Virus record (IMG/VR): IMGVR_UViG_3300043435_000575
Coordinates: 1 to 44,515 of that record
DNA length: 44,515 bases
Reading direction: 5' to 3' (one strand)
DNA from: a virus
Shown here: positions 960 to 22,500 of the stretch, one piece after another
Position numbering within the stretch: position 1 is the first letter of the stretch
Layout of the letters: the number at the start of each line of letters is the position of its first letter
Notes under the pieces: model-generated
Seen by the model: the letters and a program-made list of their open reading frames with translations, nothing else
Told to the model about the DNA's origin: nothing
The model's database searches: none
Position numbers and translations under genes: made by a program

Positions 960-1730
960 TTAAGACGTTAACTTTTTCCACTCTTCTTTTTGAATGGCTT
1001 GCTCAATTCTTACTTGTTTTTCTTCTTCTTTCCACTTATCAATAGTTTCTTGACTATATTCAATTTCAAAATAATCCCAAAAAGAAACCATAGTATATCT
1101 TGTGCCTTCTAATATTTTACTAACACCATGCACATTTTCTATTCCTCCAGGAAATACATAGTAAGAGTATGCATTTGGTTTAAAGGATAAATAGATGTCC
1201 CACTTTTCTCCTTCTGAATTTATTTCAAAGTCTTCTTTTTCTTTACAAAAGAAAAGATCTCCACCTTCATAGTCGTTATTAAGATATAGAATACCCACAT
1301 ACTTATTTATTTCAAAAGCGTTTGGGACCCCGTCATTATCTGAGTTGTCAGAATGAGGAGAAGCAAAACCGCCAACATCCCACTTCTGTGCATGAGATGT
1401 ATTGGCTCTAACTTTTCTTTCAAAAACCAGTTCAACTGCTTCTTTAAACTTTTCTCTAAGGTCATCAAAAAATGTTAGCGTTAGACCATGTTCTTCAAGT
1501 CCTGGATCGTTTGCCATTAATCCCATACCTAGAGATCCATAAAACGCTATGTCTCCCCAGTTTTCTCCTTTTGACTCTACATAATTAATTAGACATTGGC
1601 TTGTTTTTTCATCTATAAAATTAGGAATTTCAACAATTCTGTTGTGAGTTATACCTAAAACACCCTTATTATTTAATTCATCTTTTAAATATTTAAAGTT
1701 ATCTTTATTAAGTTGATTAATGATAGTCAT
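960..1730 (-). CDS. 2OG-Fe(II) oxygenase, prolyl-4-hydroxylase-like (256 aa)
   Basis: C-terminal double-stranded beta-helix of the 2OG-Fe(II) family. The iron ligands are H126-x-D128 (PHSDNSD) and H201 (NVHGV), and R211 (EGTRY) is the probable 2-oxoglutarate ligand. The strand signature YLNNDYEGGDLFF precedes KPNAYSYYVFPGG. It should hydroxylate a peptide or sugar substrate using O2 and 2-oxoglutarate; proline hydroxylation is inferred from family resemblance. The N-terminal 110 residues are not recognised and may choose the substrate. It overlaps the upstream gene by 14 bases and is the last of the packed oxygenase run. The sequence does not show the substrate. Confidence 0.85.
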   Translation of the reverse strand: MTIINQLNKDNFKYLKDELNNKGVLGITHNRIVEIPNFIDEKTSQCLINYVESKGENWGDIAFYGSLGMGLMANDPGLEEHGLTLTFFDDLREKFKEAVELVFERKVRANTSHAQKWDVGGFASPHSDNSDNDGVPNAFEINKYVGILYLNNDYEGGDLFFCKEKEDFEINSEGEKWDIYLSFKPNAYSYYVFPGGIENVHGVSKILEGTRYTMVSFWDYFEIEYSQETIDKWKEEEKQVRIEQAIQKEEWKKLTS

Positions 1731-2529
1731 TTTTTATGTAAACCCCGCTGCTTCTTTCAATGTTCATTCTGTCTTTTTCCATTTGCATCCATGTATCTGG
1801 TCCATATTTTTTTTGATTCTCAATCCAAGCATCTGATGCTTGTTCATCTACATACCAAAAAGATCTAACAAAATACTTTTCTCCTTCAGTAGTTTCTCTT
1901 ACTCCATGCCAGTACGGTGGCCTTGACGGAAAGATAATTACATCTCCTTCTTCTGGCTTATAAGTAATTCTTGTAAAAGAATCTTTATTGGAAAATACTT
2001 TAAATTCAATTTCTCCGCCATTATAGTTACTATTTAAATACATATTGCAAGTCAGGGCTTGTTTTTCTCCTGGACCCTCTGCATCTTCTTGTGGATAGTC
2101 TGTATGAAAAGACATAGAATATCTTGAATTGTTGTTTTCAATATGTGGAGAGTCACTTTCAGCCTTTGTAGAATCTTTTGAATTATAGTATTTGCATATG
2201 TCAGCCTTTAAAAATACTAAGTCCTCTAAGGATAGACCCGTTGTATCAACATAATGCTTTGTTGTTTTATAAAAAACATCAAGTATATCCTTGTGTTGAT
2301 CTGATACAAGAAAAGATTCTATGTATAAAGACCATTCTTGATCTGAAGGAAAAGATTTAGATCGATAAAAATTGTTATTGAAAATTTTATAAATATCCCC
2401 AAAGTCATACCACTTTTCCCAAGTTGCGGAATCTAGAGAATCCAGAAGGCCACGCAAATCTTTAAATGGGTTCTTATATACAAAAATGTTTTGGTCTATT
2501 TTATTAAAATTAATATTTTTAATTGTCAC
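1717..2529 (-). CDS. 2OG-Fe(II) oxygenase, prolyl-4-hydroxylase-like (270 aa)
   Basis: Metal ligands H142-x-D144 (FHTDY) and H208 (WHGVR), with GEKYFVRSFW supplying the basic 2-oxoglutarate-binding position. The core YLNSNYNGGEIEF and KPEEGDVIIFP are typical of viral P4H-type enzymes. It starts at GTG in a GTGA overlap with the upstream gene's stop, so it is probably translationally coupled. The N-terminal half has no motif I recognise. It is closest in layout to the next gene upstream (2526-3362), with a shared pattern ALTCxMYLN, so the two look like divergent duplicates. Confidence 0.85.
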   Translation of the reverse strand: MTIKNINFNKIDQNIFVYKNPFKDLRGLLDSLDSATWEKWYDFGDIYKIFNNNFYRSKSFPSDQEWSLYIESFLVSDQHKDILDVFYKTTKHYVDTTGLSLEDLVFLKADICKYYNSKDSTKAESDSPHIENNNSRYSMSFHTDYPQEDAEGPGEKQALTCNMYLNSNYNGGEIEFKVFSNKDSFTRITYKPEEGDVIIFPSRPPYWHGVRETTEGEKYFVRSFWYVDEQASDAWIENQKKYGPDTWMQMEKDRMNIERSSGVYIKNDYH

Positions 2530-3362
2530 ATTGCTACCTTAGATTCATCTATACCCTTTTTAATATTTGGCTTTTTGAAATCGTGATACCTGTCACCTCT
2601 ATCAATTCTTTCTTTTTCCATCTTTGCCCATTCTTCAACACCAAATTTTTCTTGATTATCGTGCCACTCTTTTGTTCCAGCAAATGGAATTTGATAAAAG
2701 CATCTAATAAGATATTTGTCAATATTTCTAATTCTTTTAACACCGTGAAGGTATCTTCCCTCTTGAGATAATAAATCTGGATGGCCTGAAGGAAAAACCA
2801 AAACATCTCCAGCCTCTGGTTTATAATCTATAACCGTTTTATTCCCAGTTAAAAATGTTATACCTCCATCGCCATAGTCATCATTCAAATACATTGTGCA
2901 TGTTAATGCAAATTGTGCTCCTGGGCAATCTGTTTCAAGGGCTTTATAGTCTGAGTGATGGATCATTTCTAAAGAATCTTTATCGCTATTTGGATCATTG
3001 TCATGAGTATATTTTGAAATTGATGGGCCCATAATAATCCAGTCCTCTCCTATTTTAAGATTATGGGCAGACATAAAATTTTCGGTTGCATAACCAAATG
3101 CATGCTGTATTGTTTCTAATGCCTCAACCTCTTCTAAATATAGTGTGTTATTAATATTAGGATCATCTTCATTTAGAAAATTACCAATGACATATACATA
3201 GTGTCCAAACCTACTCCATGGTTGCCAATCGTCAAATAAAAAACTAGTTCCTTTGTTTAATTCAGACTGCTTAAATAATTCTACAATCCTTTTATTGTTT
3301 GGAATTAACCCTTTGTAAACATAAATGTTTTCATCTAATTGTTTAACTGTAATATTATTCAT
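2526..3362 (-). CDS. 2OG-Fe(II) oxygenase, prolyl-4-hydroxylase-like (278 aa)
   Basis: Iron ligands H136-x-D138 (HHSDY) and H206 (YLHGV), with R220 (KYLIRCF) as the likely 2-oxoglutarate contact. YLNDDYGDGGITF and KPEAGDVLVFPSG form the conserved barrel strands. Its ATG overlaps the TGA of an 11-codon reading frame (3359-3394) that starts 6 bp after a TATAAT box, so expression may be coupled to that leader. It resembles the following gene (1717-2529) over most of its length. Substrate unknown; a phage fibre protein is my inference from context. Confidence 0.85.
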   Translation of the reverse strand: MNNITVKQLDENIYVYKGLIPNNKRIVELFKQSELNKGTSFLFDDWQPWSRFGHYVYVIGNFLNEDDPNINNTLYLEEVEALETIQHAFGYATENFMSAHNLKIGEDWIIMGPSISKYTHDNDPNSDKDSLEMIHHSDYKALETDCPGAQFALTCTMYLNDDYGDGGITFLTGNKTVIDYKPEAGDVLVFPSGHPDLLSQEGRYLHGVKRIRNIDKYLIRCFYQIPFAGTKEWHDNQEKFGVEEWAKMEKERIDRGDRYHDFKKPNIKKGIDESKVAM

Positions 3363-3394
3363 TTTTTGTCCCCCATTGGATTATCTTTAAACAT
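3359..3394 (-). CDS. Possible 11-codon leaderless leader peptide
   Basis: Minus-strand reading frame MFKDNPMGDKK. Its ATG lies exactly 6 bp after TATAAT (3401-3406), and its TGA overlaps the ATG of the oxygenase gene at 3362. The oxygenase has no good ribosome-binding site of its own, so ribosomes loading on the leaderless ATG could reach it by termination-reinitiation. Too short for coding statistics; the geometry is the only support. Confidence 0.45.
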   Translation of the reverse strand: MFKDNPMGDKK

Positions 3395-3401
3395 ATAATT
3401 A

Positions 3402-3956
3402 TTATACCACCTTGTCTCCAAATAAAATTGCAAAACCAAATCTAGGGGTTATGGGTTCAACATAGTGGTAAGTTCCACCAGGTATATACAATAGATCTCC
3501 TTCTTCTAATATAACATCCATAAAAGGTTGATCATTTTCAACAGAATCATAAAGTCTCCAACGTGTTTTACCTTTACATTGCCAATGTATATTGTTTTCC
3601 CTGTCTTCATGTTTGCCAATAACTTGTCCGCTATCTTCAAGTTTAAGTGAACCAAATAACTGACATGTTACAACCTTTAAATCTTTAAAACAAGGATAAA
3701 ATCTAGAATGAACTTCTTTTACAAATAAATTTACTGAACTTATAATCTGTGCCTCATCATAAAATAATGCGTATGGATTAGGCAAAATCTTTTTACCAGT
3801 TTTTTTGTGCTCATAATCATTTACAAACTGAAGCACTTCATCCCAGGTAACTTCAGGCATTGATATTTTTGGAAAAAGAGTTGCTACTTTATTATTATAA
3901 GCATTTAAAAAATTATCTTGATCTAAAAAATTAAAATCAAAACTTTTATTTTTCAT
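3402..3956 (-). CDS. JmjC/cupin-like 2OG oxygenase (184 aa)
   Basis: Small cupin-fold protein with a JmjC-type metal site: H116-E-D118 (GKHEDRE) and H164 (GTYHYVEP), joined by WQCKGKTRWRLYD and EEGDLLYIPGG. This resembles bacterial and ribosomal JmjC hydroxylases of the ROX/cupin_4 type, which hydroxylate Arg or His side chains, but shorter. The stop codon lies inside the extended -10 GTGGTATAAT that serves the next leader. The start overlaps the previous gene by 4 bases (ATGA). A relative with the same ligand spacing (H116, D118) lies at 42862-43461. Confidence 0.72.
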   Translation of the reverse strand: MKNKSFDFNFLDQDNFLNAYNNKVATLFPKISMPEVTWDEVLQFVNDYEHKKTGKKILPNPYALFYDEAQIISSVNLFVKEVHSRFYPCFKDLKVVTCQLFGSLKLEDSGQVIGKHEDRENNIHWQCKGKTRWRLYDSVENDQPFMDVILEEGDLLYIPGGTYHYVEPITPRFGFAILFGDKVV

Positions 3957-4627
3957 TTTGATTTTCCATGTGAACGAATTGTAAAGAAAAAAGGAATAAC
4001 ATATCTAATTCCTTTTTTAATTTCTCTTACTCCGTGAATATAATTTAAATCTCCAGGGAAGAAATATGCAGAACCCGCTTTTGGCTTAAACTCAATTCCT
4101 TGATTTGGGAAATATAACTCTCCACCTTCATAGTCATCATTAAGATAAAAAAGACCTGCAATATCATACCAAGGAAAATCATTTGGCTTTCCTACATTGT
4201 CTCCTTCGTGCAACTCTTTATCTGCATGTGGGTTTTGTAGTTGTCCTGGAAGCCATCTAACAATTGCTGTTGCTGTGGGCCAGGCGTCAATATTAAAAAA
4301 ATCATTTACTTCTTCTGTAAGCCTGTCTTGAAGGCTTTTAATTACTGGGTTTATATTTTTATTATTTTGATCTAATCTATCTCCAGTGCAGACTCTGTCA
4401 TCCCAATATTTAGAATCATAAATAACAGTTCCTTCTTCGTTATAGTGAGTTTCAGTAATATCCCAAATTGTAATATTTTTTGCTGATTCTGATAAAAAAG
4501 ATAGTTCTTCGTCGGTCATAAAATTGTTTCGTGCTTGGATCATATCTGCACTTTTACCAAAAAATCCAGAGGGAGTTATTGAAAATCTATCTTTATCTTG
4601 GTGATTAGAGTACTCTATTTTTTTCAT
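3953..4627 (-). CDS. 2OG-Fe(II) oxygenase, prolyl-4-hydroxylase-like (224 aa)
   Basis: Iron ligands H134-x-D136 (NPHADKE) and H198 (YIHGVRE), with R208 (KGIRYV) as the 2-oxoglutarate contact. YLNDDYEGGELYFP and KPKAGSAYFFPGD are the conserved strands. The ATG is 6 bp after TATACT (4634-4639), so the message is probably leaderless and this gene heads a sub-operon running to 960. The N-terminal 110 residues are unrecognised. Confidence 0.85.
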   Translation of the reverse strand: MKKIEYSNHQDKDRFSITPSGFFGKSADMIQARNNFMTDEELSFLSESAKNITIWDITETHYNEEGTVIYDSKYWDDRVCTGDRLDQNNKNINPVIKSLQDRLTEEVNDFFNIDAWPTATAIVRWLPGQLQNPHADKELHEGDNVGKPNDFPWYDIAGLFYLNDDYEGGELYFPNQGIEFKPKAGSAYFFPGDLNYIHGVREIKKGIRYVIPFFFTIRSHGKSK

Positions 4628-4647
4628 ACAGTTAGTATATCATCTTT

Positions 4648-5382
4648 CTATTCATATTTGCGCTGCTCCCAGATTTCATTTTTATATATTCCGCCATTTG
4701 GTTTTCTATAAATTTGATAATTTTCTATTGATTGCTTCATTAGTTCAACTGCATTATCTTGTTCTATTATTTCAGAAGTCCAGGATTCTCTTTTAAATGG
4801 CAGAAGTTGAGCATACGCTGTTCCTTCTGGAATAATTCCCTCAAAACCCTCACAAATAAAAAATGGAAAAGATCCAGGCATATGAACTTTGTCGTTATCC
4901 ACAATTCCACTAGTTAGCAAAAATGGTAACTCAAATCTGTTAAATGGCTGAGTATACAATACGCTATATCCTGGAGGAGTTTTTATTTGCCAATCTGGAG
5001 TTATTGCAAAATGATTTTTGTAATACCCGCGGGGGTGTTCAAACTGTGGCATTTCTGATCTTTCTTCAATTAAGTTTTTATATTTTACATTTAAAACTTT
5101 ATGTTTTAGTCCAGAATCAGTCATGTAGAATTCAATATCGCAAGGAAGATTAAGAGAATATCCAGAACCCATAATATCAAAAATTGCAGGACAGGCCTTC
5201 CATGTAGGAACTTTTCCACCATCCTCTCCTATATAAAAAGAATTGTCTGTTGGTAATTTTGCAAACCTATCTGCTTTTCTAAACCATTCAGGAATTGTTC
5301 TTATAATTGGAGTTGGTGCTGACTTGCTTTCTTTTGAAAGCCAAATTTTATTTGCAATAAAAGATATTTTTTCTGTATTCAT
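4648..5382 (-). CDS. DUF6065-like phage protein A (244 aa)
   Basis: No catalytic motif recognised. Landmarks are IPEWFRKADR, VPTWKACPAIFDIM, LPCDIEFYMTD and a C-terminal IPEGTAYAQLLPFKRESW. The order of elements (Cys-Pro block, strand with D-I-x-F, Pro/Phe-rich middle, PxGT block, terminal helix) matches the upstream neighbour, so the two appear to be divergent paralogues. I associate this architecture with DUF6065, but the assignment is from memory. The start forms a TAATG junction with the upstream stop. Its place among oxygenases suggests a role in the same modification pathway. Confidence 0.6.
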   Translation of the reverse strand: MNTEKISFIANKIWLSKESKSAPTPIIRTIPEWFRKADRFAKLPTDNSFYIGEDGGKVPTWKACPAIFDIMGSGYSLNLPCDIEFYMTDSGLKHKVLNVKYKNLIEERSEMPQFEHPRGYYKNHFAITPDWQIKTPPGYSVLYTQPFNRFELPFLLTSGIVDNDKVHMPGSFPFFICEGFEGIIPEGTAYAQLLPFKRESWTSEIIEQDNAVELMKQSIENYQIYRKPNGGIYKNEIWEQRKYE

Positions 5383-6092
5383 TACTTGTCACTTTGATAT
5401 TTATTAATTGAAAGTTTTAAGGATTTTACTTCGTGCTCTCCAAGGCTATTTCCTAAATGGTCAACAGCATCTCTATAAAAGTTTGTCCATTGTCCAGACT
5501 GAGTTATTTCTCCAGAGGCTTTTCCATATTCAGAAAGATTCTTTTCAAAATCTTGATCTTTTACATAGTCGTACAGATTTACTTCTGTTGCTTGGAGTTT
5601 TTTTAAACTAATTGGCATAATACAAACAATTGGTGTTCCTGCTGGTATTGTTATTACTTCATTTGCCCTTGTTATTTTCCATGCATATGGAAGTGGAGCA
5701 AGATGGACAACTGGACTAATTACACTTGAGAATCCTTGAACACCATCAATAAATTGATTTGGAACTGGAAGGAGCAGTAGACTAATCTCATCAGTACTTT
5801 TAAAATATAAACCACTATTAAAACTTATAGTTCCGTTAGCCCTGTTTGCATGAACATACTTTTCTCCAGAAAGAATTTCAAGGTCTTCAGATCTAGAGTT
5901 TGGATCTGTTCCTTTCCAAATAAAAGAAATGTCTTCTGGAAAAGAAAATGTCCATCCTGTTGTGTTTGCCAACGATACTGGGAAGCAATGATAGGCGTGT
6001 TTGTCAAAAGTTTCATCCATCCAGTTTCTTCTAACTTTTAAAGTATCAAAAGTTACATCAGAATGTGGTGTTTGATAAACATCTATAGACAT
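5382..6092 (-). CDS. DUF6065-like phage protein B (236 aa)
   Basis: Contains RRNWMDETFDKHAYHCFPVSL, NTTGWTFSFPEDISFIWKG, a hydrophobic Pro-rich middle (LAPLPYAWKITRAN) and IPAGTPIVCIMPISL. The NxTGW...P.D..F.W.G signature is what I recall for DUF6065. The fold and activity are unknown, and no metal site like those of the neighbouring oxygenases is visible. It sits 1 base after the upstream oxygenase stop and shares a TAATG junction with its paralogue downstream. Confidence 0.62.
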   Translation of the reverse strand: MSIDVYQTPHSDVTFDTLKVRRNWMDETFDKHAYHCFPVSLANTTGWTFSFPEDISFIWKGTDPNSRSEDLEILSGEKYVHANRANGTISFNSGLYFKSTDEISLLLLPVPNQFIDGVQGFSSVISPVVHLAPLPYAWKITRANEVITIPAGTPIVCIMPISLKKLQATEVNLYDYVKDQDFEKNLSEYGKASGEITQSGQWTNFYRDAVDHLGNSLGEHEVKSLKLSINKYQSDK

Positions 6093-6093
6093 G

Positions 6094-6780
6094 TTAGTTT
6101 CCTGTTTCTAAAAACATCTCTGGTCCATGGAATTTTGCGCTGTAGTCTAGCATTGTTACAATTGAATATTTAGTTCCGCTAGTAACTGGCATTGCTCTAT
6201 GAGAATACATATATGTTGATGGGAAAATATACAAATCTCCAGCACGTGGTTTTACTAATAAATCTTGGTGTTGAAAATGTAAACCACCGTCGACGTAGTC
6301 GTCATTTGGGTATGCAACCAAAGACACTGTACAGTTATAAGAAAATCCATGATCATGATGATATTGGAAATGCTGACCCTCATGGTATCTAATAAAATTC
6401 ATTGCTTCCCAAAACCTTAGTTCTGCAATATTAAACATTTTACGATAGTGCTCAACTGCTGGACTTTTTCTATCGTAGCAGTCTTGCCAAAGTTGTTGAA
6501 GCGCTAAAGATGCTTCTCCTGGTCTTTGTGCCATATCTTTCTTTGTAAACTTAAAGTCAACACAATCTCTATATTCTGGCATGCTTTCTTGATAGCCAAC
6601 AAACGCTTCCATCCAGTGAAATGGGTTGCTTTGGTCTTCAAGAACAGACTCTAATCTGTTAATAATATCCAGTTCTTTAGGTAAAACATCTCTATAGACA
6701 AAAATTCCACTCCCTAGATCTTCAAAAGACGACCAGGTTTGCTCTATAGGGGTTGTCTCAGTTTGAACATGTTTTTGCAT
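6094..6780 (-). CDS. 2OG-Fe(II) oxygenase, prolyl-4-hydroxylase-like (228 aa)
   Basis: Iron ligands H141-x-D143 (YHHDHG) and H194 (YSHRAM). The basic position is K204 (SGTKYS) rather than Arg. Core strands are YPNDDYVDGGLHF and KPRAGDLYIFPSTY. It shares EAMNFIRYHEG with EAFNFVKYLPG of the next gene upstream (6816-7520), so these two form a closer subgroup. A TATAAT box lies about 30 bases upstream of the ATG, and AGCAGGA provides a ribosome site, so this gene has a conventional leader. Confidence 0.85.
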   Translation of the reverse strand: MQKHVQTETTPIEQTWSSFEDLGSGIFVYRDVLPKELDIINRLESVLEDQSNPFHWMEAFVGYQESMPEYRDCVDFKFTKKDMAQRPGEASLALQQLWQDCYDRKSPAVEHYRKMFNIAELRFWEAMNFIRYHEGQHFQYHHDHGFSYNCTVSLVAYPNDDYVDGGLHFQHQDLLVKPRAGDLYIFPSTYMYSHRAMPVTSGTKYSIVTMLDYSAKFHGPEMFLETGN

Positions 6781-6815
6781 TTTTTCCTGCTTTCTACTAT
6801 GTATATATTATAGCA

Positions 6816-7520
6816 CTAGTTATTCTTATGATGTAAATCGTTATAGTCTGTCATAATTACAACAGAATACTTTATACCCTGCAATAATTCACAAGAGGCA
6901 TGCTCATAAACAAAATTTGATGGGAAAAGAACAATGTCTCCAGCCTGGGGCTTAATCTTTAATTCTTGTCTTGGAAACTCTAATTCTCCACCAACATAGT
7001 CATCATTAAGATATAGTATTGCAGATATTGTACATGCATAGAATGGGCCATGGTCACCATGAAGTTTAAAATATTTCCCAGGTAGATACTTAACAAAATT
7101 AAAGGCTTCTTTGTATTTCATCTGAAGATGCCATAAAGACTCATAATCATTTAGGCAGACATCTAATGCGTCTTCTACCTCTTTGTGTATGTCAAACATG
7201 TCTTGATTAAAAGATATCCCAGACTTTCCAAGCATATCTCTTTTATATTTTATATCAATGCAGTTCCTAACATAATCTAAATTTTCTACATCATTAACCA
7301 TTGCTGTAGACCAAGAAAGGTTACAGTCTGGATCGTTTGCTGAGTTTTCTAGTCTTTTAATTATACTATCACACTGGCTTCTATTTATGGCATTTTTATA
7401 TACATTAATACCGTAGCCAATATTTAAAACCTCTATGTTATTTGACATTGATCTAGACTTTAGCCTACTGTCTGCTTTTTCTAATCTTGGTAAATCAAGC
7501 CACCCAAAGTTATTTGTCAT
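6816..7520 (-). CDS. 2OG-Fe(II) oxygenase, prolyl-4-hydroxylase-like (234 aa)
   Basis: Iron ligands H154-x-D156 (LHGDHG) and H207 (YEHASC), with K217 (QGIKYS) in the 2-oxoglutarate position. YLNDDYVGGELEFP and KPQAGDIVLFPSNF mark the core. The ATG is 6 bp after an extended -10 TGCTATAAT (7527-7532), so it is probably leaderless. Like the 6094 gene, it carries an N-terminal domain of about 130 residues with an NCIDIKYKRD block similar to DCVDFKFTKKD. Confidence 0.86.
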   Translation of the reverse strand: MTNNFGWLDLPRLEKADSRLKSRSMSNNIEVLNIGYGINVYKNAINRSQCDSIIKRLENSANDPDCNLSWSTAMVNDVENLDYVRNCIDIKYKRDMLGKSGISFNQDMFDIHKEVEDALDVCLNDYESLWHLQMKYKEAFNFVKYLPGKYFKLHGDHGPFYACTISAILYLNDDYVGGELEFPRQELKIKPQAGDIVLFPSNFVYEHASCELLQGIKYSVVIMTDYNDLHHKNN

Positions 7521-7564
7521 TCTAATATTATAGCATATCTACATATTTATACAAAATATTAATT

Positions 7565-8242
7565 TTAAATTTGATATATGTAAATTTCTGCAAAATCATA
7601 AATTGGATCTTTTTTAAGCAATTCTTTAAAAATATAATCATTTTCAAAATGAAAAACAAAAAAGGATTTAGATTTTGATAAAATTTCCCATTTATCTAAT
7701 ATTAATTTATTAAAAATTTCAGGCAGCAATGGGTAATAAAAATAATAAACACACTTTTCTTCTGAAAAATGATAATCATTTATATCACTATTTATAAAAT
7801 CAACTTCTTTATCTATTTCTATATTAATTGTTTTTAAATTATTTAAAGCAATATTGTTGAATTGATCGTCTATCTCTACACCTACATACTTCTTATACGG
7901 TGCATTTGAGATTAACTGATGTAAAATTGTTTTTCCCTTACCGCTACCTATATCTAAAAAGGTATACTCCTCAATTCCTTCAATATCTTTCATAAAATTA
8001 TTCACCATGTCTAAAATTTTTAAAGGTGAGTTCTGTAAACCCATTGATCCTGGAAACCTATCATTATTATCAATACTGCCTGGCACATATTCACCAGAAC
8101 CATCTGAGGCTAAAGGAGTTGGATGCCAAGTGTCTACATTATATTTTTCATCAAAAAATTTGAATAATGAAGCGTCTTCTCTTCTAATTTTTTTTAATAC
8201 ATCTAAATTCTTTATTGTACTTTTGTCTACACCTTTATGCAT
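7565..8242 (-). CDS. Class I SAM-dependent methyltransferase (225 aa)
   Basis: Rossmann-fold methyltransferase motif I is FLDIGSGKGK (residues 95-104). The acidic ribose-binding strand is YVGVEIDDQF (about 118-127), and a YYFYYPLLPE block sits near residue 167. It should transfer a methyl group from SAM to an unknown acceptor; candidates in context are a hydroxylated peptide or a fibre glycan. SD-like AGGAG lies 7 bases before the ATG. It overlaps the AspH-like gene upstream by 8 bases, which implies co-translation. DNA methylation motifs such as DPPY are absent. Confidence 0.78.
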   Translation of the reverse strand: MHKGVDKSTIKNLDVLKKIRREDASLFKFFDEKYNVDTWHPTPLASDGSGEYVPGSIDNNDRFPGSMGLQNSPLKILDMVNNFMKDIEGIEEYTFLDIGSGKGKTILHQLISNAPYKKYVGVEIDDQFNNIALNNLKTINIEIDKEVDFINSDINDYHFSEEKCVYYFYYPLLPEIFNKLILDKWEILSKSKSFFVFHFENDYIFKELLKKDPIYDFAEIYIYQI

Positions 8243-8822
8243 TTTTTGCTCCTAAATATTTGTTTGGCATGATATCAATTATAGCATGGATTCTGTCATG
8301 GTCACTATCGTTTATTACTGAGTGTGGAATAATATTATTAATCTCATACCAATTTCCAACCTCAAGATACTTTTTTTCTTCAAATACTTCAAATATGACT
8401 TTTGGATTTGTTATTAGTGGAATATGTATTCTTCTACCGAGTTGTAGCATTACCCCGCCATCAACGTGAGATTTTATTCCAGAGCGCTTATTCATTTGAA
8501 TTATCTCACTCCTAATAACTTTGCCATCGTACAAGTTTTCTAAATATTCATAAATAGCATTAAGGCTTTCATTAGATTGTTTATTTTTAAAATAATTTAT
8601 ATCATAAGATGTATTGCCTTGTCCAATTTCCCAATGATAAGACATAAACCTTAGTTGAAACATTTTTGTATCTTTGTGCGTTGCCAACTTGTCTTGACGA
8701 GAAGTATCCAGTAGCCACTCATTTTCAAAAGAGTTAACTTCTTGAATTATTGAAGATAGATCAACTGGTAAAGATCCATATTGATAGTTCCAAGAAGTAT
8801 TCTTATCTGGTAGTTTTAACAT
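8235..8822 (-). CDS. Aspartyl/asparaginyl beta-hydroxylase-like oxygenase (195 aa)
   Basis: Matches the AspH family pattern: H119-x-D121 (SHVDGG), RRIHIPLITNP (130-140), YEINNIIPHSV with H167, and DRIHAIID with R177. AspH enzymes hydroxylate Asp or Asn beta-carbons in peptides; bacterial members also act on lipid or small substrates. This is a different subfamily from the P4H-like neighbours, so the locus gathers at least three oxygenase types. It overlaps the sulfotransferase gene upstream by 20 bases. Confidence 0.8.
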   Translation of the reverse strand: MLKLPDKNTSWNYQYGSLPVDLSSIIQEVNSFENEWLLDTSRQDKLATHKDTKMFQLRFMSYHWEIGQGNTSYDINYFKNKQSNESLNAIYEYLENLYDGKVIRSEIIQMNKRSGIKSHVDGGVMLQLGRRIHIPLITNPKVIFEVFEEKKYLEVGNWYEINNIIPHSVINDSDHDRIHAIIDIMPNKYLGAKNA

Positions 8823-9489
8823 AATCGTAAATTTCCATATCTAAATTGTTTAATTCTTCAATTTTATTTTTCATTGAATCTGATATTTTAATAGTTTGAA
8901 AATTTTCATTAATAGCATTTTTATTTGAAAAACTATAAAACCCATATGCCTGATAACATAGATCATTTAACCTTGATATAAAAGATGAATGATTGTCTAA
9001 TGTATCTATTAGAGCCATTGAGTCTATAAGGTCTTTTACTTCTTTTATATCTACGCTACCTTCTTCAAGGCACCAACTTTCATTGGCTCTTTGAATTCCG
9101 TGGTCTAAAGAATTATAAAAATCTTCGTTTAAACTTTTATTTAAACTTCTAGCCTGAAGGTTATGGTGTTTTGAATTTTCCACCCATTTTTCAAGTTGAG
9201 CCTCTAAGTGAGCACCTTTAAAAGATGGATGTAAATAAATAAAGTTGCTTATAAATCTATCTAATGGATTTCTAACCAAGCCTATATTTATTAAGTCGTC
9301 TCTATACTTTAATGCAGTCAGACCAAAGTGCCCTGAAATAAACCGTTTATCAACAAAGGTTTTTGGAAAAACCTCTCCGTGGTTTGTAGCAAAGTATGGA
9401 ATCTTCCTAATCTTTAGATCATTAACAATATGAGTCTTTATATATATACCCGAACATCTTGGGATATGTATATGATTTATTGAACTCAT
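8803..9489 (-). CDS. Sulfotransferase-like protein (228 aa)
   Basis: The N-terminal HIPRCSGIYIK (residues 8-18) resembles the PAPS 5'-phosphosulfate loop (HIPKTAG-type). LVRNPLDRFISNFIYL (71-86) resembles the 3'-phosphate motif with conserved Arg and Ser. This is the Sulfotransfer_2-type layout for enzymes that sulfate carbohydrates or proteins from PAPS. The first loop has Arg-Cys in place of Lys-Thr, so catalytic competence is uncertain. It lies directly downstream of the first Hint adhesin gene, with a 1-base gap. Confidence 0.7.
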   Translation of the reverse strand: MSSINHIHIPRCSGIYIKTHIVNDLKIRKIPYFATNHGEVFPKTFVDKRFISGHFGLTALKYRDDLINIGLVRNPLDRFISNFIYLHPSFKGAHLEAQLEKWVENSKHHNLQARSLNKSLNEDFYNSLDHGIQRANESWCLEEGSVDIKEVKDLIDSMALIDTLDNHSSFISRLNDLCYQAYGFYSFSNKNAINENFQTIKISDSMKNKIEELNNLDMEIYDYVKTTR

Positions 9490-9490
9490 A

Positions 9491-10855: not shown

Positions 10856-10885
10856 TTTTTATTTCTCCAATTTTCTTTGTATTTT

Positions 10886-13603: not shown

Positions 13604-13662
13604 ATTTTATTTCTCCTTTATGGGGGCTGCCCATTAACTTATCTTATTATAACACCCAATTT

Positions 13663-14112: not shown

Positions 14113-14147
14113 TTACTACTCCTTCTTCCAACTATTTTTATTTTTTA

Positions 14148-16214: not shown

Positions 16215-16232
16215 TTTTTATATCTCCTTTTA

Positions 16233-16679: not shown

Positions 16680-16711
16680 GTGGTAATTATATCACCCTTT
16701 TAATTATCTAA

Positions 16712-17346: not shown

Positions 17347-17357
17347 AGTTTATTATA

Positions 17358-17894
17358 TCACGACAGGCCGTCTTTGAGAGCGCCCCAAGTGCCGTTTCCT
17401 TTTGTTTGAACTATTAACATACCGCTAACTGACTGAATGGCAACAACGGCTACATATCTTGCTGGTCCTGTACTTGGACGGGTTGAAACAAGTGTTCCAC
17501 TTTCATCAACATAAACCCTTGTGCCAGGAAGACCAAGACCTGTTGTATTCATTTCTAAAACACCAGAAACAATTACAAGCCCATTTGTATTATTTGCAAT
17601 ACTGCTTTTTACTAACCCTAATATTGGAATATCTGGATTGTGAGATACACTTGATGGATTATATTTTTCTATTAATGATTTTCCACTAAGACTTCCGCTA
17701 ATAAAAACTGGTGTACCAGTATCAATTGCTGCTCCTGTAGTATTTCTAGCATCAAGATATGCTGCGCCATAGCCTAGTGGAGGCAAAATATCATTTAAAG
17801 CATCAACTAATACTTTAAAGTCTCCGTGTACGTTCACGGGATCAGAAGCAATAGGATATTTCATAGTAGGATAATTAGATGATGATTGCGCCAT
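17358..17894 (-). CDS. Structural protein, decoration/fibre type (178 aa)
   Basis: Has a beta-rich pattern: NTTGAAIDTGTPVFISG, ILGLVKSSIANNTNGLVIVSG, PGTRVYVDESGTLVSTRP and YVAVVAIQSVSGMLIV. The alternation of 'TG..I..GTPV' and 'G..V' strands is seen in phage capsid-decoration and fibre-tip proteins. TATAAT lies 7 bases before the ATG. It is the first minus-strand gene after the opposing lysozyme gene and opens the fibre block running left. Confidence 0.65.
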   Translation of the reverse strand: MAQSSSNYPTMKYPIASDPVNVHGDFKVLVDALNDILPPLGYGAAYLDARNTTGAAIDTGTPVFISGSLSGKSLIEKYNPSSVSHNPDIPILGLVKSSIANNTNGLVIVSGVLEMNTTGLGLPGTRVYVDESGTLVSTRPSTGPARYVAVVAIQSVSGMLIVQTKGNGTWGALKDGLS

Positions 17895-17920
17895 AATTTC
17901 TATTATACCACCCTCTAAAG

Positions 17921-17975
17921 TTGACTTTTGACAAATTTTTATGTTATACTAGTAAGTAACACCTACCAAGGTGTT
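17921..17975 (+). promoter_or_regulatory. Promoter and leader hairpin of the lysozyme gene
   Basis: TTGACT (17921-17926), 18 bp, then extended -10 TGTTATACT with the hexamer at 17945-17950. A 6-bp inverted repeat AACACC/GGTGTT (17958-17975) overlaps the predicted transcription start and could be an operator or leader hairpin. This gives the lysozyme its own switch inside an opposing block. Confidence 0.75.
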
Positions 17976-17997
17976 GTTGTTTTCTAAGGAGGAAACT

Positions 17998-18561
17998 ATG
18001 ATTAAATTTATCGAAAGAAACAAAGAGATCATTAGCACACTCAGTATCGTAGCACTAGTAACAGTTATGTCTAATTCTGCTAATGCTATTTCAGATTTTG
18101 ATACTAAGAATAACCTTAGCCTGAAACAGGCTCAGACATCGGAAACCACCTCGAAAGAGGTTTTTTTGGTTTCTAAAGCAAAAAAGTTAGAGAGTTTTGA
18201 AAATAAGGTTTCTCTAACAGATTTAGAACTAAAGGAACTGCTTTCCCTAGTTGGCTTCAAGGGTAAAGACCTTGTTGTGGCTTGGGCAGTAGCAAAGAAA
18301 GAATCTAATGGACGACCATTGGCCTTTAATGGCAATCACAAGACTGGGGATTCGTCTTATGGTATGTTCCAAATTAATATGATTGATACACTTGGTCCTG
18401 ATCGTAGGGACAAGTTTGATCTTGACTCTAACGCTGAATTATTTAATCCCGTCAAGAATGCTGAAATTGCATACTACATGACAAAGGGTGGGGACGACTG
18501 GTCTTCTTGGAAAGGCATCACTCCAAAGACTAAGGAATGGATGGCTAAGTTTCCTCGCTAA
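17998..18561 (+). CDS. Lysozyme-like/transglycosylase endolysin with signal-type N-terminus
   Basis: The start at 17998 is chosen because AAGGAGG sits 6 bases upstream. The N-terminus is basic, then hydrophobic (STLSIVALVTVMSN), then ANA-I, which resembles a signal peptide or signal-anchor. The C-terminal domain has AVAKKESNGRP (likely catalytic Glu), SSYGMFQINMI, FNPVKNAEIAYYM and WSSWKGI, the goose-type/SLT lysozyme-like pattern for cutting peptidoglycan. It is the only plus-strand gene among minus-strand late genes, and its stop overlaps that of the convergent glycosyltransferase. Export by the host Sec system would put it outside the membrane before the holin acts. Confidence 0.82.
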   Translation: MIKFIERNKEIISTLSIVALVTVMSNSANAISDFDTKNNLSLKQAQTSETTSKEVFLVSKAKKLESFENKVSLTDLELKELLSLVGFKGKDLVVAWAVAKKESNGRPLAFNGNHKTGDSSYGMFQINMIDTLGPDRRDKFDLDSNAELFNPVKNAEIAYYMTKGGDDWSSWKGITPKTKEWMAKFPR

Positions 18562-19511
18562 TTCCTTCTTGGTGGCATGCCAAGTGCCCTAGGCTCAACT
18601 ACAACATGTGAACTGTAGTTTGGAATAAAGTCTGTGTATTTTGTGTCTATACCAGACTCTTTAAGAAAATTGTAAACTTTTTCTTTTGGAATTTCTAATT
18701 GACCAGACATTAGCATAGACAGTCTATTAGTTGATTCTTCAACATGGCTCCAGTAGTGTTCTTTTCTGCCGTCTGCCCAAGGCCTAAGCGTTTCTCTTGT
18801 TACAGATCCATTTGCCTGTCCATGCGACTGATTGTGAAAAACATCCCTTGTGCCAATAGAGTAAATTTTCCAATCTTTTGCATAAGTTCTTAAAGATAAA
18901 GCAAACTCTTCAGTATTGAATGATTCTTTACCGCTAATACCAACTTCATCAATCCATTGCTTGGGTGCAAAAAGGTAACAACATGTAGCCCAATACGAAC
19001 GAACTATTTCCTCTATTTCTAAAACCCTGTATCCTGGAAACTGAAATCCTGGAACTAAATTATTAAATAAAAATCCATACAGTGATACTTTACAGTCTGT
19101 AACAAAATTAATTGACCCGTCTGACATTATTTTATACTCTGCTGGGGCATATGCAATAATAAATTTTTCATTATTAATATTTAATTTTTCATATCTTTCA
19201 ACAGCAAACCTATCCCATTCTGGTGCTGCATAGGTGTGTGAATCAAACTGTATAAAATAGTTATAATCTACATTAACTTGAGTTGCCAAGTTTCTAGCCC
19301 AACAGACACCACCCCTATACTCTGAAAGATCAAAGTGCCTATATAATAACTGTTCTTTTGGTATAAAAGATAAATCATATTTAGTATTATCTTCTGAAAC
19401 TATAGAAAAATACAGATCCTCTTTATTTTTTGCCTGATGCCACAAAGAAAACATTGTAGAATAAAACTCTGGGTCACAATAATTGACAACACTAACTAAT
19501 ATTTTTTTCAT
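18558..19511 (-). CDS. GT60-like glycosyltransferase (hydroxyproline GlcNAc-transferase-like; 317 aa)
   Basis: Starts ILVSVVNYCDPEFYSTMFSL, a GT-A nucleotide-sugar fold. RGGVCWARNLA (about 67-77) is followed by YFIQFDSHTYAAPEWD with the acidic metal motif DSH (90-92). A later NTEEFALSLRTYAKDW and VFHNQSH fit the same pattern. It matches my memory of PF11397/GT60, whose known member adds GlcNAc to hydroxyproline on Dictyostelium Skp1 after a P4H acts. It is followed downstream by the lysozyme gene and overlaps an oxygenase-like gene upstream by 4 bases (ATGA). Donor and acceptor are inferred. Confidence 0.75.
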   Translation of the reverse strand: MKKILVSVVNYCDPEFYSTMFSLWHQAKNKEDLYFSIVSEDNTKYDLSFIPKEQLLYRHFDLSEYRGGVCWARNLATQVNVDYNYFIQFDSHTYAAPEWDRFAVERYEKLNINNEKFIIAYAPAEYKIMSDGSINFVTDCKVSLYGFLFNNLVPGFQFPGYRVLEIEEIVRSYWATCCYLFAPKQWIDEVGISGKESFNTEEFALSLRTYAKDWKIYSIGTRDVFHNQSHGQANGSVTRETLRPWADGRKEHYWSHVEESTNRLSMLMSGQLEIPKEKVYNFLKESGIDTKYTDFIPNYSSHVVVEPRALGMPPRRN

Positions 19512-20068
19512 CCCTTATTTCTTATTCCAGTATATAAATGTTGTGGGCCTTTTGTAAAAAACCAATGATCTGGCTCTACATAAAAGAAAAAAGCATTTGC
19601 AACTAGGTTATTCTTTGGGTCAGGGAATTCCTCTCTCCAGTGTTGTTGATCATTCCCGTATGAAATAACCATATCATTTTCTTCTGGTTGAAACTTTATT
19701 CCTTCAACATAAAAATCCCAAGGTGTTTTATGAAAAATTGTATAATTCATATGGTATGTACAAGCATTATCATCAACATGTTTCCAAAGTCTAGCCTTTT
19801 CTCCTTCATAGATACTTAATAAACACCAGGAAGGAAGTAATGTTTCTGATTCAAATTCTTCTTTTGCCAGTGGTAGAAGCATCTGATGAAATTTTCTAAG
19901 TGGTATTATATTTTCTCTATGTGTTCCGTCCCAAATTGCCCATTGATGTCTACCAAAACCTTCGTCAAATGTACTTTTATCTGTTGACCAAAGATGCATT
20001 GCTAGATCTTGTAATTCCTTATGTTCTTTTTCTGGAAGAACGGTTTTTAATAAATATGGCGCTTTCAT
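19508..20068 (-). CDS. Probable 2OG-Fe(II) oxygenase, divergent (186 aa)
   Basis: Carries H97-V-D99 (WKHVDDN) and H143 (DQQHWRE), spaced as in 2OG-Fe(II) enzymes. The strands between them (YHMNYTIFHKTPWDFYVEG, FQPEENDMVISYG) are compatible with the barrel, but the usual YLNDDYxGG is absent and the 2-oxoglutarate Arg is not obvious. It is the middle gene of a three-gene set (zinc protein, oxygenase, this gene, glycosyltransferase follow one another with overlaps), which ties it to glycan addition. Confidence 0.62.
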   Translation of the reverse strand: MKAPYLLKTVLPEKEHKELQDLAMHLWSTDKSTFDEGFGRHQWAIWDGTHRENIIPLRKFHQMLLPLAKEEFESETLLPSWCLLSIYEGEKARLWKHVDDNACTYHMNYTIFHKTPWDFYVEGIKFQPEENDMVISYGNDQQHWREEFPDPKNNLVANAFFFYVEPDHWFFTKGPQHLYTGIRNKG

Positions 20069-20586
20069 CGTAGAAAACTAACTACTGCATATTTATCGCC
20101 TTCAATAATTGGGGATACTGAGTGATTATAAACATATATAGATGGAAATATAATTATTTGATTAGTTTTTGGTTTAAGTTTAATATTAAATCTTGGAAAG
20201 TTTATTTCTCCACCAATATAATCATCATTTAAATAATATACAACTGAAACTCTTCTATGATATTCGGTTCCGTCATCTACATGATTAATAAAACCTTGTC
20301 CTGGACTATATTTCATTATTCCGTATACGTCATGCCATTCAGGAAATATCTTATAATACTCTTTATAGTCTTTCTCTATTGGATCAAAATGATCAAAGAA
20401 CAACCTGTTTAATTTTAAAGAAGTTATTTTTTCTAAATCTTCAACTTCTGCATAAGACCATTTAGGTGTAATCCATTTAGAATCCATCATCAATTTTTGA
20501 ATTTCTTTATATAAAAAAACATTATCTGGAATTACATTATCATATACAACAATTCCTGGAGCAATTTCTTCTTTTATCATTACCAT
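20065..20586 (-). CDS. 2OG-Fe(II) oxygenase, prolyl-4-hydroxylase-like (173 aa)
   Basis: The start at 20586 (or 20580, MIKEEI) is preferred over a longer frame because it overlaps the stop of the zinc protein upstream. Iron ligands are H102-x-D104 (NHVDDG) and H155 (YNHSVS), with K165 in the 2-oxoglutarate position. YLNDDYIGGEINFP and KPKTNQIIIFPS mark the core. At 173 residues it is almost just the catalytic core, like short algal and phage P4Hs. The glycosyltransferase lies two genes downstream. Confidence 0.82.
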   Translation of the reverse strand: MVMIKEEIAPGIVVYDNVIPDNVFLYKEIQKLMMDSKWITPKWSYAEVEDLEKITSLKLNRLFFDHFDPIEKDYKEYYKIFPEWHDVYGIMKYSPGQGFINHVDDGTEYHRRVSVVYYLNDDYIGGEINFPRFNIKLKPKTNQIIIFPSIYVYNHSVSPIIEGDKYAVVSFLR

Positions 20587-20777
20587 TTTCCTAACGGACA
20601 CGATGCTGCTTCTAACATTACTTTTGCTTTCATAAAACATCCACATTTTTTACATTGTTTTGTTAATTTTATTAGTTCTGGACATTGTTTGCATATATTA
20701 AATCTTTGATTAGAGAGATCTGATTCCTTTACATAATTTTTTAAATTAAGCATGTGTAAAGGATTTACTTCGTTCAT
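20580..20777 (-). CDS. Small Cys-rich zinc-ribbon-like protein (65 aa)
   Basis: Contains CKQCPELIKLTKQCKKCGCF and a later Cys in AASCPLGKW, so two CxxC pairs and an extra Cys could bind zinc. Similar small proteins occur next to 2OG oxygenases in other phages as far as I recall, but no function is known to me. Its ATG is 1 base after the stop of the second Hint adhesin gene. Confidence 0.68.
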   Translation of the reverse strand: MNEVNPLHMLNLKNYVKESDLSNQRFNICKQCPELIKLTKQCKKCGCFMKAKVMLEAASCPLGKW

Positions 20778-20778
20778 T

Positions 20779-22500
20779 TTATTCTGAATCTCTTTGTGTT
20801 AGGCCTTGGAAGACACCCTTCTTATTATGAGAGATTAGATCTCCTGCAATAAAGAGTGAATAAGGATTTACAGTGATGTCATAAACATCTGTTGTTTCAT
20901 CAACATAACCCAATACTTCAACAAGTACATCTGTTGCTTGATTATTTATGTCATAAACTAAATAGTCGCCAAGTTTAATTACACCAGCCTGAATAAATGC
21001 GTATACTCCATCTCTCTTAACTAGCATTAAGTGCTCTAGAGAGAATCTTCTTTGCTTACTACCATTAAACATTACAGTAGTTGCAACATCTCTTGCCTTA
21101 ATTGCACTAATAGTTGTTTCAACAACTGATGATCCAGTTAGAGTATCAGATACCCATGTCTCAGCAAAATCAACAGATGAGTTATCTGGTAATTCATTGA
21201 AACTGTAGGATACTAGACTTTGTCCTATAAACAAATCTCTTGCTTTAACATATCCACTAGTTGTTCTTACAAGAACATCACCCTGTACACATCCATCAAT
21301 TGGTGCAACTGGTGTTGGTTCAGTTGGAGTTGGGGTAAATACTGGTGGGAAGAATGGACAGAATACTGGTGGGAAGAATGGACAGAATACTGGTGGGAAG
21401 AACGGACAGAATGATGGTGGGAAGAACGGTGGGAAGAACGGTGGGAAGAACGGTGGGAAGAATGGTCCTGTTGCTGGAGGCGTACAGTCTTGTGTGTCCG
21501 AATCTGTTCCTGTTGTAACAATTGGGGCTGGGTTTGGAGAACATCCACTTGCAGTTTCTGTTATAGTATACGATCTAGTTCTTGTTTGTGCATATTCATC
21601 TGGGCCACCAACTCTTACACAAGCACCCCAAGGACCCCACTCACCGTAAGTTGTTGTTGTTGTCCAGGTTGGTACACATGTTGGTGCAACTGGTGCAACT
21701 GGTGCAACTGGTGCAACTGGTGCAGTTGGTGTAGGTGTTGTACAAGTTACTGATGGATATCCTGAAGAACTTGCTGCAGTAATATTGGTTGCAGTTGGAT
21801 ATGTTGCTAATAAATTATCTAATGCCTGTCCTGATGTTGCTCCTGTGTCAGTAACCGTAGTTCCACCAACACAACCAGAGATATACCAAGTTGTTGCAAC
21901 AGGTGTTGGAGTAGGTGTTGTACAAGTTACTGATGGATATCCTGAAGAACTTGCTGCAGTAATATTGGTTGCAGTTGGGTGAACTTCTAGAAGATTATCA
22001 AGGGCTCTTCCTGATGTTGGACCTTCTCCATAAACAGGACTTCCATTAACGCAACCAGAGATGTACCAAGTAACAGGTGTTGGTGTTGGTGTTGGTACAC
22101 ATGCTGCAGGAATTCCCAATAAAGTAACAATTTCAGCACTTGACAAGTTTGATATTGTAGTTGTTCCTGTAATGTTTGTAATTCCTGATCCTGTAGGAGG
22201 TGTTCCATAAGCGCCTGAATAAGCAGTCGTTGATCCGTTACATGTTACATAAATATCATAAATTGTAACCTCTGGTGTTGGTGTTACAGGAGTAGGTGCT
22301 ACAGGAGTAGGTTCTACAGGAGTAGGTGCTACAGGAGTAGGTGCTACAGGAGTAGGTGCTACAGGAGTAGGTGCTACAGGAGTAGGTGCTACAGGAGTAG
22401 GTTCTACAGGAGTAGGTGCTACAGGAGTAGGTGCTACAGGAGTAGGAGTTGCTGCTAAAAATATTCCTATACCACTTGGGCCACGAAATAATGGACTCAT
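20779..22500 (-). CDS. Second Hint adhesin: PTPV repeats, Cys modules, TSP1-like, FFPP, Hint (573 aa)
   Basis: Order: a PTPVA pentapeptide tract (about 17-76), three related Cys modules (TxxIYVTCNGS, WYISGCVNG, WYISGCVGG), a short APV repeat, a thrombospondin type 1-like segment (EWGPWGACV...QTRTRSY...C...C, about 285-340), an FFPP/PPVFCPFF tract (346-388), then a Hint domain from Cys404 to His558-Asn559 and a 14-residue tail starting KKG. The Hint part is near-identical to that of the 454-residue adhesin. The tandem Pro-rich tracts resemble hydroxyproline-rich glycoproteins, good candidate substrates for the nearby P4H-like enzymes and GT60-like enzyme. Confidence 0.82.
   Translation of the reverse strand: MSPLFRGPSGIGIFLAATPTPVAPTPVAPTPVEPTPVAPTPVAPTPVAPTPVAPTPVAPTPVEPTPVAPTPVTPTPEVTIYDIYVTCNGSTTAYSGAYGTPPTGSGITNITGTTTISNLSSAEIVTLLGIPAACVPTPTPTPVTWYISGCVNGSPVYGEGPTSGRALDNLLEVHPTATNITAASSSGYPSVTCTTPTPTPVATTWYISGCVGGTTVTDTGATSGQALDNLLATYPTATNITAASSSGYPSVTCTTPTPTAPVAPVAPVAPVAPTCVPTWTTTTTYGEWGPWGACVRVGGPDEYAQTRTRSYTITETASGCSPNPAPIVTTGTDSDTQDCTPPATGPFFPPFFPPFFPPFFPPSFCPFFPPVFCPFFPPVFCPFFPPVFTPTPTEPTPVAPIDGCVQGDVLVRTTSGYVKARDLFIGQSLVSYSFNELPDNSSVDFAETWVSDTLTGSSVVETTISAIKARDVATTVMFNGSKQRRFSLEHLMLVKRDGVYAFIQAGVIKLGDYLVYDINNQATDVLVEVLGYVDETTDVYDITVNPYSLFIAGDLISHNKKGVFQGLTQRDSE

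Follow-up and report, generated by a model that had tools for sequence, protein, structure and literature searches.

FFPP fibre tails and prolyl-hydroxylase-like oxygenase arrays in an uncultured phage: a candidate fibre-tail maturation cassette

In collagen maturation, prolyl 4-hydroxylases (P4Hs), prolyl 3-hydroxylases and lysyl hydroxylase, members of the 2-oxoglutarate (2OG)-Fe(II) oxygenase families, act on a proline-rich structural repeat, and viral enzymes of this kind are found in mimivirus and in Paramecium bursaria chlorella virus 1 (PBCV-1; a P4H). Mimivirus has its own collagen hydroxylated and glycosylated, as stated in the consulted part of PMC8968730. In the Skp1 pathway of Dictyostelium and Toxoplasma, PhyA makes hydroxyproline (Hyp), and Gnt1 uses the hydroxylated Skp1 as its substrate (consulted part of PMC3515798). 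Viral P4H genes have already been set beside tail-fibre collagen, their use being called cryptic (PMC9301287, in an excerpt), and the 2OG-Fe(II) oxygenases of T4-like cyanophages have been proposed for 2OG/nitrogen signalling or DNA repair (PMC3037559, in an excerpt). Here we analysed an uncultured-virus record of 44,515 bases (IMGVR_UViG_3300043435_000575; the window, meaning this whole stretch) by gene calls and by Pfam searches with curated cut-offs, and describe two clusters of oxygenase genes in it, each lying behind a fibre gene that encodes FFPP repeats. The window enzymes belong to the same superfamily as those of the cyanophages, with detectable similarity, but the role considered here is different. 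They share the 2OG-Fe(II) families with collagen maturation, and a proline-rich structural repeat would again be the substrate; unlike in the collagen system, the repeat is FFPP and not Gly-X-Y, several enzymes form one array, DUF6065 and PHROG 7084 proteins are partners, and the setting is a bacteriophage. We consider it probable, from comparative sequence evidence, that the window carries a fibre-tail maturation cassette by which the prolines of the phage's own fibre tail are hydroxylated, with further enzymes as options. To our knowledge, a repeat-directed prolyl-hydroxylation pathway of such kind is known from no bacteriophage. A literature search by title and start of abstract, which left subscription papers mostly outside and in which FFPP was not a term, found no paper on hydroxylated bacteriophage fibres and no description of an FFPP substrate, a multi-enzyme array or tail swapping.

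A DNA pattern encoding nothing but FFPPFFPP, run against IMG/VR, gave at least 120 loci, 120 of them listed (1066 kb); a collagen-repeat pattern served as control (118 loci, 1076 kb, two of 120 stretches being left out as they lay in loci already included). Oxygenases were counted with an un-iterated model derived solely from the seven PF13640 proteins of the window. As a result, oxygenases were present in 86 of the 120 listed FFPP loci (322 genes) vs 4 of the 118 collagen loci (9 genes), and the figure of 86 was identical with a model iterated on the FFPP loci. The association of oxygenases with FFPP is thus more than chance. Collagen as a general substrate was rejected, the enzymes being found in 4/118 collagen-repeat loci. 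The listed loci contained an in-frame FFPP gene in 109 of 120 cases, and around these genes 298 oxygenases lay downstream (535 kb) vs 4 upstream (351 kb), 13 of these 302 being encoded on the other strand. Downstream density was 0.5-0.8 oxygenases per kb for the first 7 kb and 0.2-0.4 at 7-12 kb. Thirty long contigs, chosen by length, all had PF13640 genes, at at least 150 places; among the 150 listed, 95 were on the FFPP strand and at most 8 kb downstream of the repeat, where 10.2 were expected. A scan of bacterial genomes with a longer pattern returned 12 stretches, all from metagenome-assembled genomes, and two of these (L591 and L600) had an FFPP gene together with oxygenases and DUF6065.

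The N-terminus of the fibre defines a large family, with at least 562 relatives confirmed, the best 80 of which were kept in the fibre-family scan. Its members have swappable aromatic tails, either with Pro-Pro (FFPP, YFPP, HFPP, FFSPPG) or without it ((FGA)n, FSVFGF). A (GAF)n scan gave 101 loci, with this fibre family in 59, seven oxygenases, one PHROG 7084 gene each in 53 loci, and no DUF6065. The effect of the tail was then read from 117 distinct fibre-family proteins with at least 3 kb downstream, oxygenases being counted within 6 kb. Two or more oxygenases stood behind 80 of 82 Pro-Pro tails vs 0 of 32 Phe/Gly tails; the Pro-Pro exceptions were L118 (none) and L039 (one), and four Phe/Gly tails had one. 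DUF6065 was likewise present behind 80/82 Pro-Pro and 0/32 Phe/Gly tails. Three proteins were classed as other: the two L135 genes, which on reading are Pro-Pro, have six oxygenases each and count as Pro-Pro in the tree, and L328, which has none. Since the Phe/Gly tails come mostly from the GAF scan and many Pro-Pro tails from the FFPP scan, 50 proteins from the fibre scan, not selected by tail, were counted separately, and two or more oxygenases were found in 43/43 Pro-Pro, 0/6 Phe/Gly and 0/1 other proteins. When the set was thinned to 95 proteins less than 90% alike in the N-terminus, the counts were 63/65, 0/27 and 2/3. Fisher's test of tail type against array gave 3e-26, kinship ignored. 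In a quick tree from the N-terminal part there were at least six changes of tail type and eight of the array, and in five supported independent pairs the array switched with the tail in about 4.6, never oppositely.

Several observations weigh against the reading of tail hydroxylation. The median p over these pairs was 0.0625, the best possible value, as a sign test with five pairs cannot reach 0.05. With the iterated model, no oxygenase was found in 34/120 listed FFPP loci, nor in 21/95 of the loci of at least 5 kb; the FFPP proteins L137, L155, L053 and L060 had none in the stretch examined, and an FFPP type of 917-1098 amino acids had none in 4/4 cases with 2 kb downstream. One fibre family accounts for 64 of 88 clustered FFPP proteins. 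In the long contigs, 55 of the 150 listed PF13640 places fall outside FFPP windows, and 5 of the 30 (G017-G020 and G028) had no oxygenase inside such windows. Ten long-contig regions were inspected individually: in G017 the array stands directly behind a second FFPP fibre, and in G018 and G019 it begins about 5 kb and six genes past another FFPP-type gene; G020 and G028 have no array beside an FFPP gene, and G025 (L365 1721-11323) has six oxygenases, together with PHROG 7084, a sulfotransferase and an AspH-like gene, in a 16-kb stretch free of FFPP genes. Finally, PHROG 7084 stands behind 73/82 Pro-Pro and 27/32 Phe/Gly tails, and in both haloviruses examined (HSTV-2, L601; HF1, L603) it lies near thymidylate synthase or ribonucleotide reductase (RNR). 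Because it occurs behind Phe/Gly tails and in haloviruses near these genes, PHROG 7084 may be unconnected with proline.

The FFPP tails without an array would also suit another explanation, in which the enzymes act on another virion or host protein or on a host surface glycan, FFPP being co-inherited as both suit the same hosts. The sulfotransferase, AspH-like and methyltransferase enzymes could have such other targets, and two oxygenase-like genes of the window (starting at 41841 and 42862) lie outside the clusters. We regard this explanation as unlikely, since tail and array switch jointly within one fibre family, and since the enzyme families are common to proteins that share the FFPP tail only. 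Such enzymes are also encoded downstream of FFPP proteins whose N-termini differ (L111, L129, L591, L071, L154 and L149). By eye, L111, L129 and L591 resemble a PASTA-like type, while L071 is followed by two PHROG 7084 genes, a sulfotransferase, an AspH, one oxygenase and a methyltransferase-like gene below the cut-off.

Under the preferred reading, hydroxylation of the fibre's own tail, the first cluster of the window would supply the enzymes. On the minus strand, twelve genes of like orientation stand behind the fibre gene (10855-9491), reaching down to position 960, and the array stops at an RNR gene. In order behind the fibre, the genes are:
8803-9489, minus strand: sulfotransferase-like accessory enzyme; Sulfotransfer_2, PF03567 at 3.2e-5, RxPxxRxxS at 73
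8235-8822, minus strand: AspH-like oxygenase, accessory; Asp_Arg_Hydrox (PF05118) at 2.1e-10, HVD119, H167
7565-8242, minus strand: methyltransferase-like accessory enzyme; every Pfam match below cut-off
6816-7520, minus strand: Ox6, core array oxygenase, prolyl 4-hydroxylase-like; PF13640, profile A6 matching 5hv0
6094-6780, minus strand: Ox5, core array oxygenase, prolyl 4-hydroxylase-like; PF13640, profile A4 matching 3itq
5382-6092, minus strand: DUF6065 protein, array core; PF19541 at 2.8e-28
4648-5382, minus strand: PHROG 7084 protein, predicted dUTPase-like fold; PHROG match, model pLDDT 93.7
3953-4627, minus strand: Ox4, core array oxygenase; PF13640, nearest solved structure prolyl 3-hydroxylase 1 (8k0e)
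3402-3956, minus strand: JmjC/cupin-type oxygenase; JmjC_2 at 1.2e-9, HED116, H164
2526-3362, minus strand: Ox3, 2OG-Fe(II) oxygenase; PF13640 over cut-off, HSD136, H206
1717-2529, minus strand: Ox2, 2OG-Fe(II) oxygenase; PF13640 over cut-off, HTD142, H208
960-1730, minus strand: Ox1, 2OG-Fe(II) oxygenase; PF13640 over cut-off, HSD126, H201, R210

The enzymes that an initial annotation of this DNA had named at 960-9489 were therefore all present and co-oriented, comprising six PF13640 proteins over the cut-off, JmjC_2, Asp_Arg_Hydrox and Sulfotransfer_2 proteins, and the methyltransferase-like one, below cut-off. It had not mentioned DUF6065 (5382), PHROG 7084 (4648), two Hint domains or the oxygenase-like genes at 41841 and 42862. 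The latter two lie far from the cluster: 41841-42389 encodes a 182-amino-acid protein with HxD and no Pfam match, and 42862-43461 a JmjC_2/cupin protein. The metal triads that it had expected held up as well, HxD and the later His being kept in 10/10 oxygenase-type proteins (Ox1-Ox7, JmjC, AspH and Ox8u of the second cluster). The seven PF13640 proteins (Ox1-Ox7) have in addition a Lys or Arg about 10 positions past the second His, and the triad and this basic residue are invariant in families A4, A5 and A6.

Comparison with the PDB showed that the closest solved relatives were prolyl hydroxylases for all four enzymes compared (Ox4, Ox5, Ox6 and Ox7). Ox4 (profile A5) matched prolyl 3-hydroxylase 1 (P3H1, 8k0e) at 8.8e-8 and P4H 3itq at 1.2e-5, followed by two designed chlorophyll proteins (5e-4) and PiuC (0.0012). 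Ox5 (profile A4) matched P4H 3itq at 3.7e-4 and the procollagen lysyl hydroxylase/glycosyltransferase 6ax6 at 0.0057, and Ox6 (profile A6) matched P4H 5hv0 at 6.4e-6, P4H 5c5t at 0.0063 and P3H1 at 0.0088. The Ox7 sequence matched a P4H at 8.8e-5 and, above 0.01, 5c5t and Egl nine homolog 1. We take 3itq and 5hv0 to be bacillar, 5c5t to be from PBCV-1 and 6ax6 from mimivirus. The likeness to the collagen enzymes thus extends to the individual members, Ox4 being nearest to P3H1 and Ox5 and Ox6 nearest to P4H.

Family occurrence was determined by best BLAST match over the FFPP and fibre-scan loci, which overlap in part. The families were found in the following numbers of loci: Ox5 133, Ox4 133, DUF6065 128, Ox6 109, PHROG 7084 107, Ox1 72, Ox3 48, Ox2 20, Ox7 14, sulfotransferase 11, AspH 10 and methyltransferase 5. 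The methyltransferase-like gene has an equivalent position in loci L039 and L040. Since the window JmjC protein had no best-match relative among the remaining FFPP and fibre loci, it stands outside the conserved array. Among 99 FFPP genes with at least five same-strand genes behind them, the commonest order was Ox6-Ox5-DUF6065-PHROG7084-Ox4 (23), the commonest identified first gene was Ox6 (42), and eight had none of the array families in the first five genes. Two further genes recur in this neighbourhood: a glutathione-peroxidase-like gene (PF00255) downstream of FFPP genes in L115 and nine other FFPP loci, and, by eye, a short-chain dehydrogenase/reductase-like gene in eight FFPP loci.

Oxygenase genes in such a position could also be auxiliary metabolic genes with products directed at nucleic acid, small molecules or the 2OG level of the host, the fibre neighbourhood being simply a variable locus. 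Such roles were published as proposals for cyanophage enzymes (2OG/NtcA signalling, DNA repair; PMC3037559, in an excerpt), and Ox5 resembles cyanophage oxygenases (27-42% over 36-82% of its length in the best 20 of 67 rows). The window array ends at an RNR gene, and the L365 cluster is free of FFPP. Yet a metabolic role predicts neither the absence of the array behind Pro-Pro-free tails, nor the downstream placement, nor prolyl hydroxylases as best relatives, and we hold it to be quite improbable. Because the enzymes track FFPP, sit downstream of it, are missing as an array behind Pro-Pro-free tails of one fibre family and, in the four families compared, have prolyl hydroxylases as best solved relatives, the hydroxylation of FFPP prolines, proposed in the initial annotation for the fibre repeats in general, is well supported by evidence that is all indirect.

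The PHROG 7084 protein of the window gave an AlphaFold model (pLDDT 93.7) with a predicted dUTPase-like beta-barrel fold: Foldseek matched dUTPases at 3.3e-4 (template-modelling (TM) score by query 0.28), and the VIA Z was 10.3 over 120 residues with a root-mean-square deviation of 2.8. Its GIVDxD segment resembles motif III of dUTPases. DUF6065 is a remote relative of PHROG 7084 (hhalign 97.3%). Of the 50 phage records matched by PHROG 7084, 48 belong to haloarchaeal viruses, and in the best 20 of the 50 the relative is annotated as hypothetical; in cyanophage S-RIM4 (L602) PHROG 7084 also lies near RNR. As a tail-specific enzyme PHROG 7084 was dropped, being found also behind Phe/Gly tails and in haloviruses. 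Neither the fibre N-terminus nor DUF6065 was matched by any of 50,697 phage records. Trimers are common among both dUTPases and phage fibres. This, the dUTPase-like fold, the remote kinship of DUF6065 and the presence of PHROG 7084 with Phe/Gly tails would fit array proteins that are mainly assembly chaperones or aromatic-tail binders, their oxygenase chemistry being vestigial. We find this very unlikely, given that none of the seven PF13640 paralogues has lost the iron triad or the basic residue behind it, both of which are invariant in A4-A6.

Tail hydroxylation, which we continue to prefer, would act on two fibres of the window. Tails of this kind are poor in Lys and Arg. FFPP and PTP repeats were confirmed there (9491-10855 and 20779-22500), as was a collagen domain, at 24359-25090. 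Their features are:
9491-10855, minus strand: first fibre, with conserved N-terminus, fn3 domains, FFPP tail and Hint domain
10010-10252, minus strand: FFPP tail of the first fibre, residues 202-282, 13 FFPP units
9536-10003, minus strand: Hint domain of the first fibre, C285 to H439-N440
20779-22500, minus strand: second fibre, with PTPV repeats, FFPP block (residues 347-386) and Hint domain (C404 to N559)
21343-21462, minus strand: FFPP block of the second fibre, 7 FFPP units
20824-21291, minus strand: Hint domain of the second fibre

Both Hint domains have the N-terminal Cys and C-terminal His-Asn (C285..HN and C404..HN) in common with bacterial intein-like (BIL) domains, and in the PDB the Hint profile matched a BIL domain as well as inteins. 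Unlike BIL domains, the window Hint is C-terminal on a phage fibre, behind aromatic-Pro repeats, and a Lys follows the HN. The two fibres share 87% identity in their Hint-bearing ends but look unlike in the remaining parts, and because of this the sequences suggest a recent exchange of the C-terminal module between them. By eye, Hint-like C-termini without Cys1 or HN were seen behind FGA and FFPP tails elsewhere (L025 17625-19151, L027 18803-20131, L345 5698-7212, L148 and L156).

The second cluster lies behind the second fibre (22500-20779), in the order:
20580-20777, minus strand: DUF6171 small Cys-rich protein
20065-20646, minus strand: Ox7, prolyl-hydroxylase-like oxygenase; PF13640
19508-20068, minus strand: Ox8u, predicted prolyl-hydroxylase-fold oxygenase; no Pfam match
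18558-19511, minus strand: PF11397 N-acetylglucosamine (GlcNAc)-type glycosyltransferase, GT60-like, D90-S-H; E 2.6e-20

The further claim of two oxygenase-like genes and a GT60-like glycosyltransferase at 18558-20586 was borne out by PF13640 at 20065, by PF11397 at 18558 and, for 19508, by the predicted fold. The 18558 protein scored 73.6 bits against PF11397 (cut-off 21) and has a D-x-H motif (D90-S-H); we take PF11397 to be GT60 and this motif to be significant for the enzyme. A phmmer search up to E 0.1 found no solved relative of it, and cultured phage records gave one weak match. In Ox8u, H97xD99 and H143 are invariant among relatives. Its predicted model (pLDDT 77.6) matched prolyl or proline hydroxylases in 50/50 best Foldseek rows, including a Dictyostelium prolyl hydroxylase domain (PHD) enzyme (best 1.0e-7, TM about 0.5-0.6), and on this model Ox8u is a prolyl-hydroxylase-fold oxygenase; profile comparison with Ox7 was not significant (probability 0.6%). 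Like the Skp1 pathway, the cluster thus combines a PHD-fold oxygenase with a PF11397 GlcNAc-type transferase, and the order of Ox8u and GT60 behind the fibre matches the Skp1 order of action. Gnt1 is, we assume, a member of GT60/PF11397. Unlike in the Skp1 pathway, the window genes are viral and adjacent, with a repeat as presumed substrate.

GT60 loci numbered 20, of which 12 were mapped, several of them near-identical. In all 11 mapped loci that reach upstream, Ox8u and GT60 stand behind a fibre with PTP repeats, and Ox7 is present in five. PTP repeats were also tried as a general marker of GT60 and of oxygenases, and this was rejected, as each occurred in 4 of 119 PTPTPTPTP loci, a further point on the contrary side. 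The glycosylation of hydroxyproline proposed in the initial annotation is therefore plausible within this phage group, where PTP fibre, Ox8u and GT60 go together, and does not extend to PTP repeats elsewhere. Its suggestion of sulfation fared less well, the sulfotransferase genes being present but standing behind only 10 of 97 distinct FFPP tails; in the window the Sulfotransfer_2 profile is marginal (24.6 bits vs a cut-off of 22), and the RxPxxRxxS motif is present, which we take to bind 3'-phosphoadenosine-5'-phosphosulfate. Glycosylation and sulfation are possible additions, with support below that for hydroxylation. In L154 (5667-8652), the GT60 position behind Ox7-Ox8u is taken by an epimerase of the GDP-mannose-dehydratase type and two Pfam-less genes, which may point to another sugar pathway. 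L024 (641-1609) and L025 (602-1570) each have a further, diverged relative of GT60 past the fibre cluster, encoded on the other strand; PF11397 was confirmed for L025 only.

The substrate, residues, chemistry and purpose that we infer from the gene content, motifs, folds and enzyme-tail co-variation described above are as follows. The fibre, with its conserved N-terminus and fn3 domains, ends in FFPP, and during infection the array enzymes would hydroxylate the tail prolines. Labour may be divided, Ox5 and Ox6 acting at the 4-position and Ox4 at the 3-position of proline, and Pro-Pro pairs could then become 3Hyp-4Hyp. The AspH-like, sulfotransferase and methyltransferase enzymes might, in some phages, attach additional groups. 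From the second cluster, Ox7 and Ox8u would hydroxylate the PTP/FFPP fibre and the GlcNAc-type transferase would then glycosylate it. The Hint domain behind each tail could serve for cleavage or covalent transfer of the tail, and the purpose of the whole may be to alter an otherwise very hydrophobic fibre tip. More tentatively, and doubtful as a whole, a large group of uncultured phages might possess a new class of matured fibre tip, in which the ribosomal FFPP polymer is turned, through a number of dedicated oxygenases, into a densely hydroxylated adhesive (3Hyp-4Hyp, possibly with hydroxylated Phe), in places glycosylated or sulfated and in some phages released or anchored by Hint; the tail chemistry would be swapped as a cassette, because sister phages with (FGA)n tails lack oxygenases.

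Phage genomes hold many 2OG oxygenases without an agreed role, and the FFPP link offers a concrete, testable substrate. If the reading is true, it would provide a context for DUF6065 and short hydroxylases for biomaterial work, and infectivity would depend on host O2, Fe and 2OG. Phages with an FFPP fibre and an array probably remodel their own fibre tips chemically, as animals do collagen, and phages would then mature structural proteins through multi-step hydroxylation.

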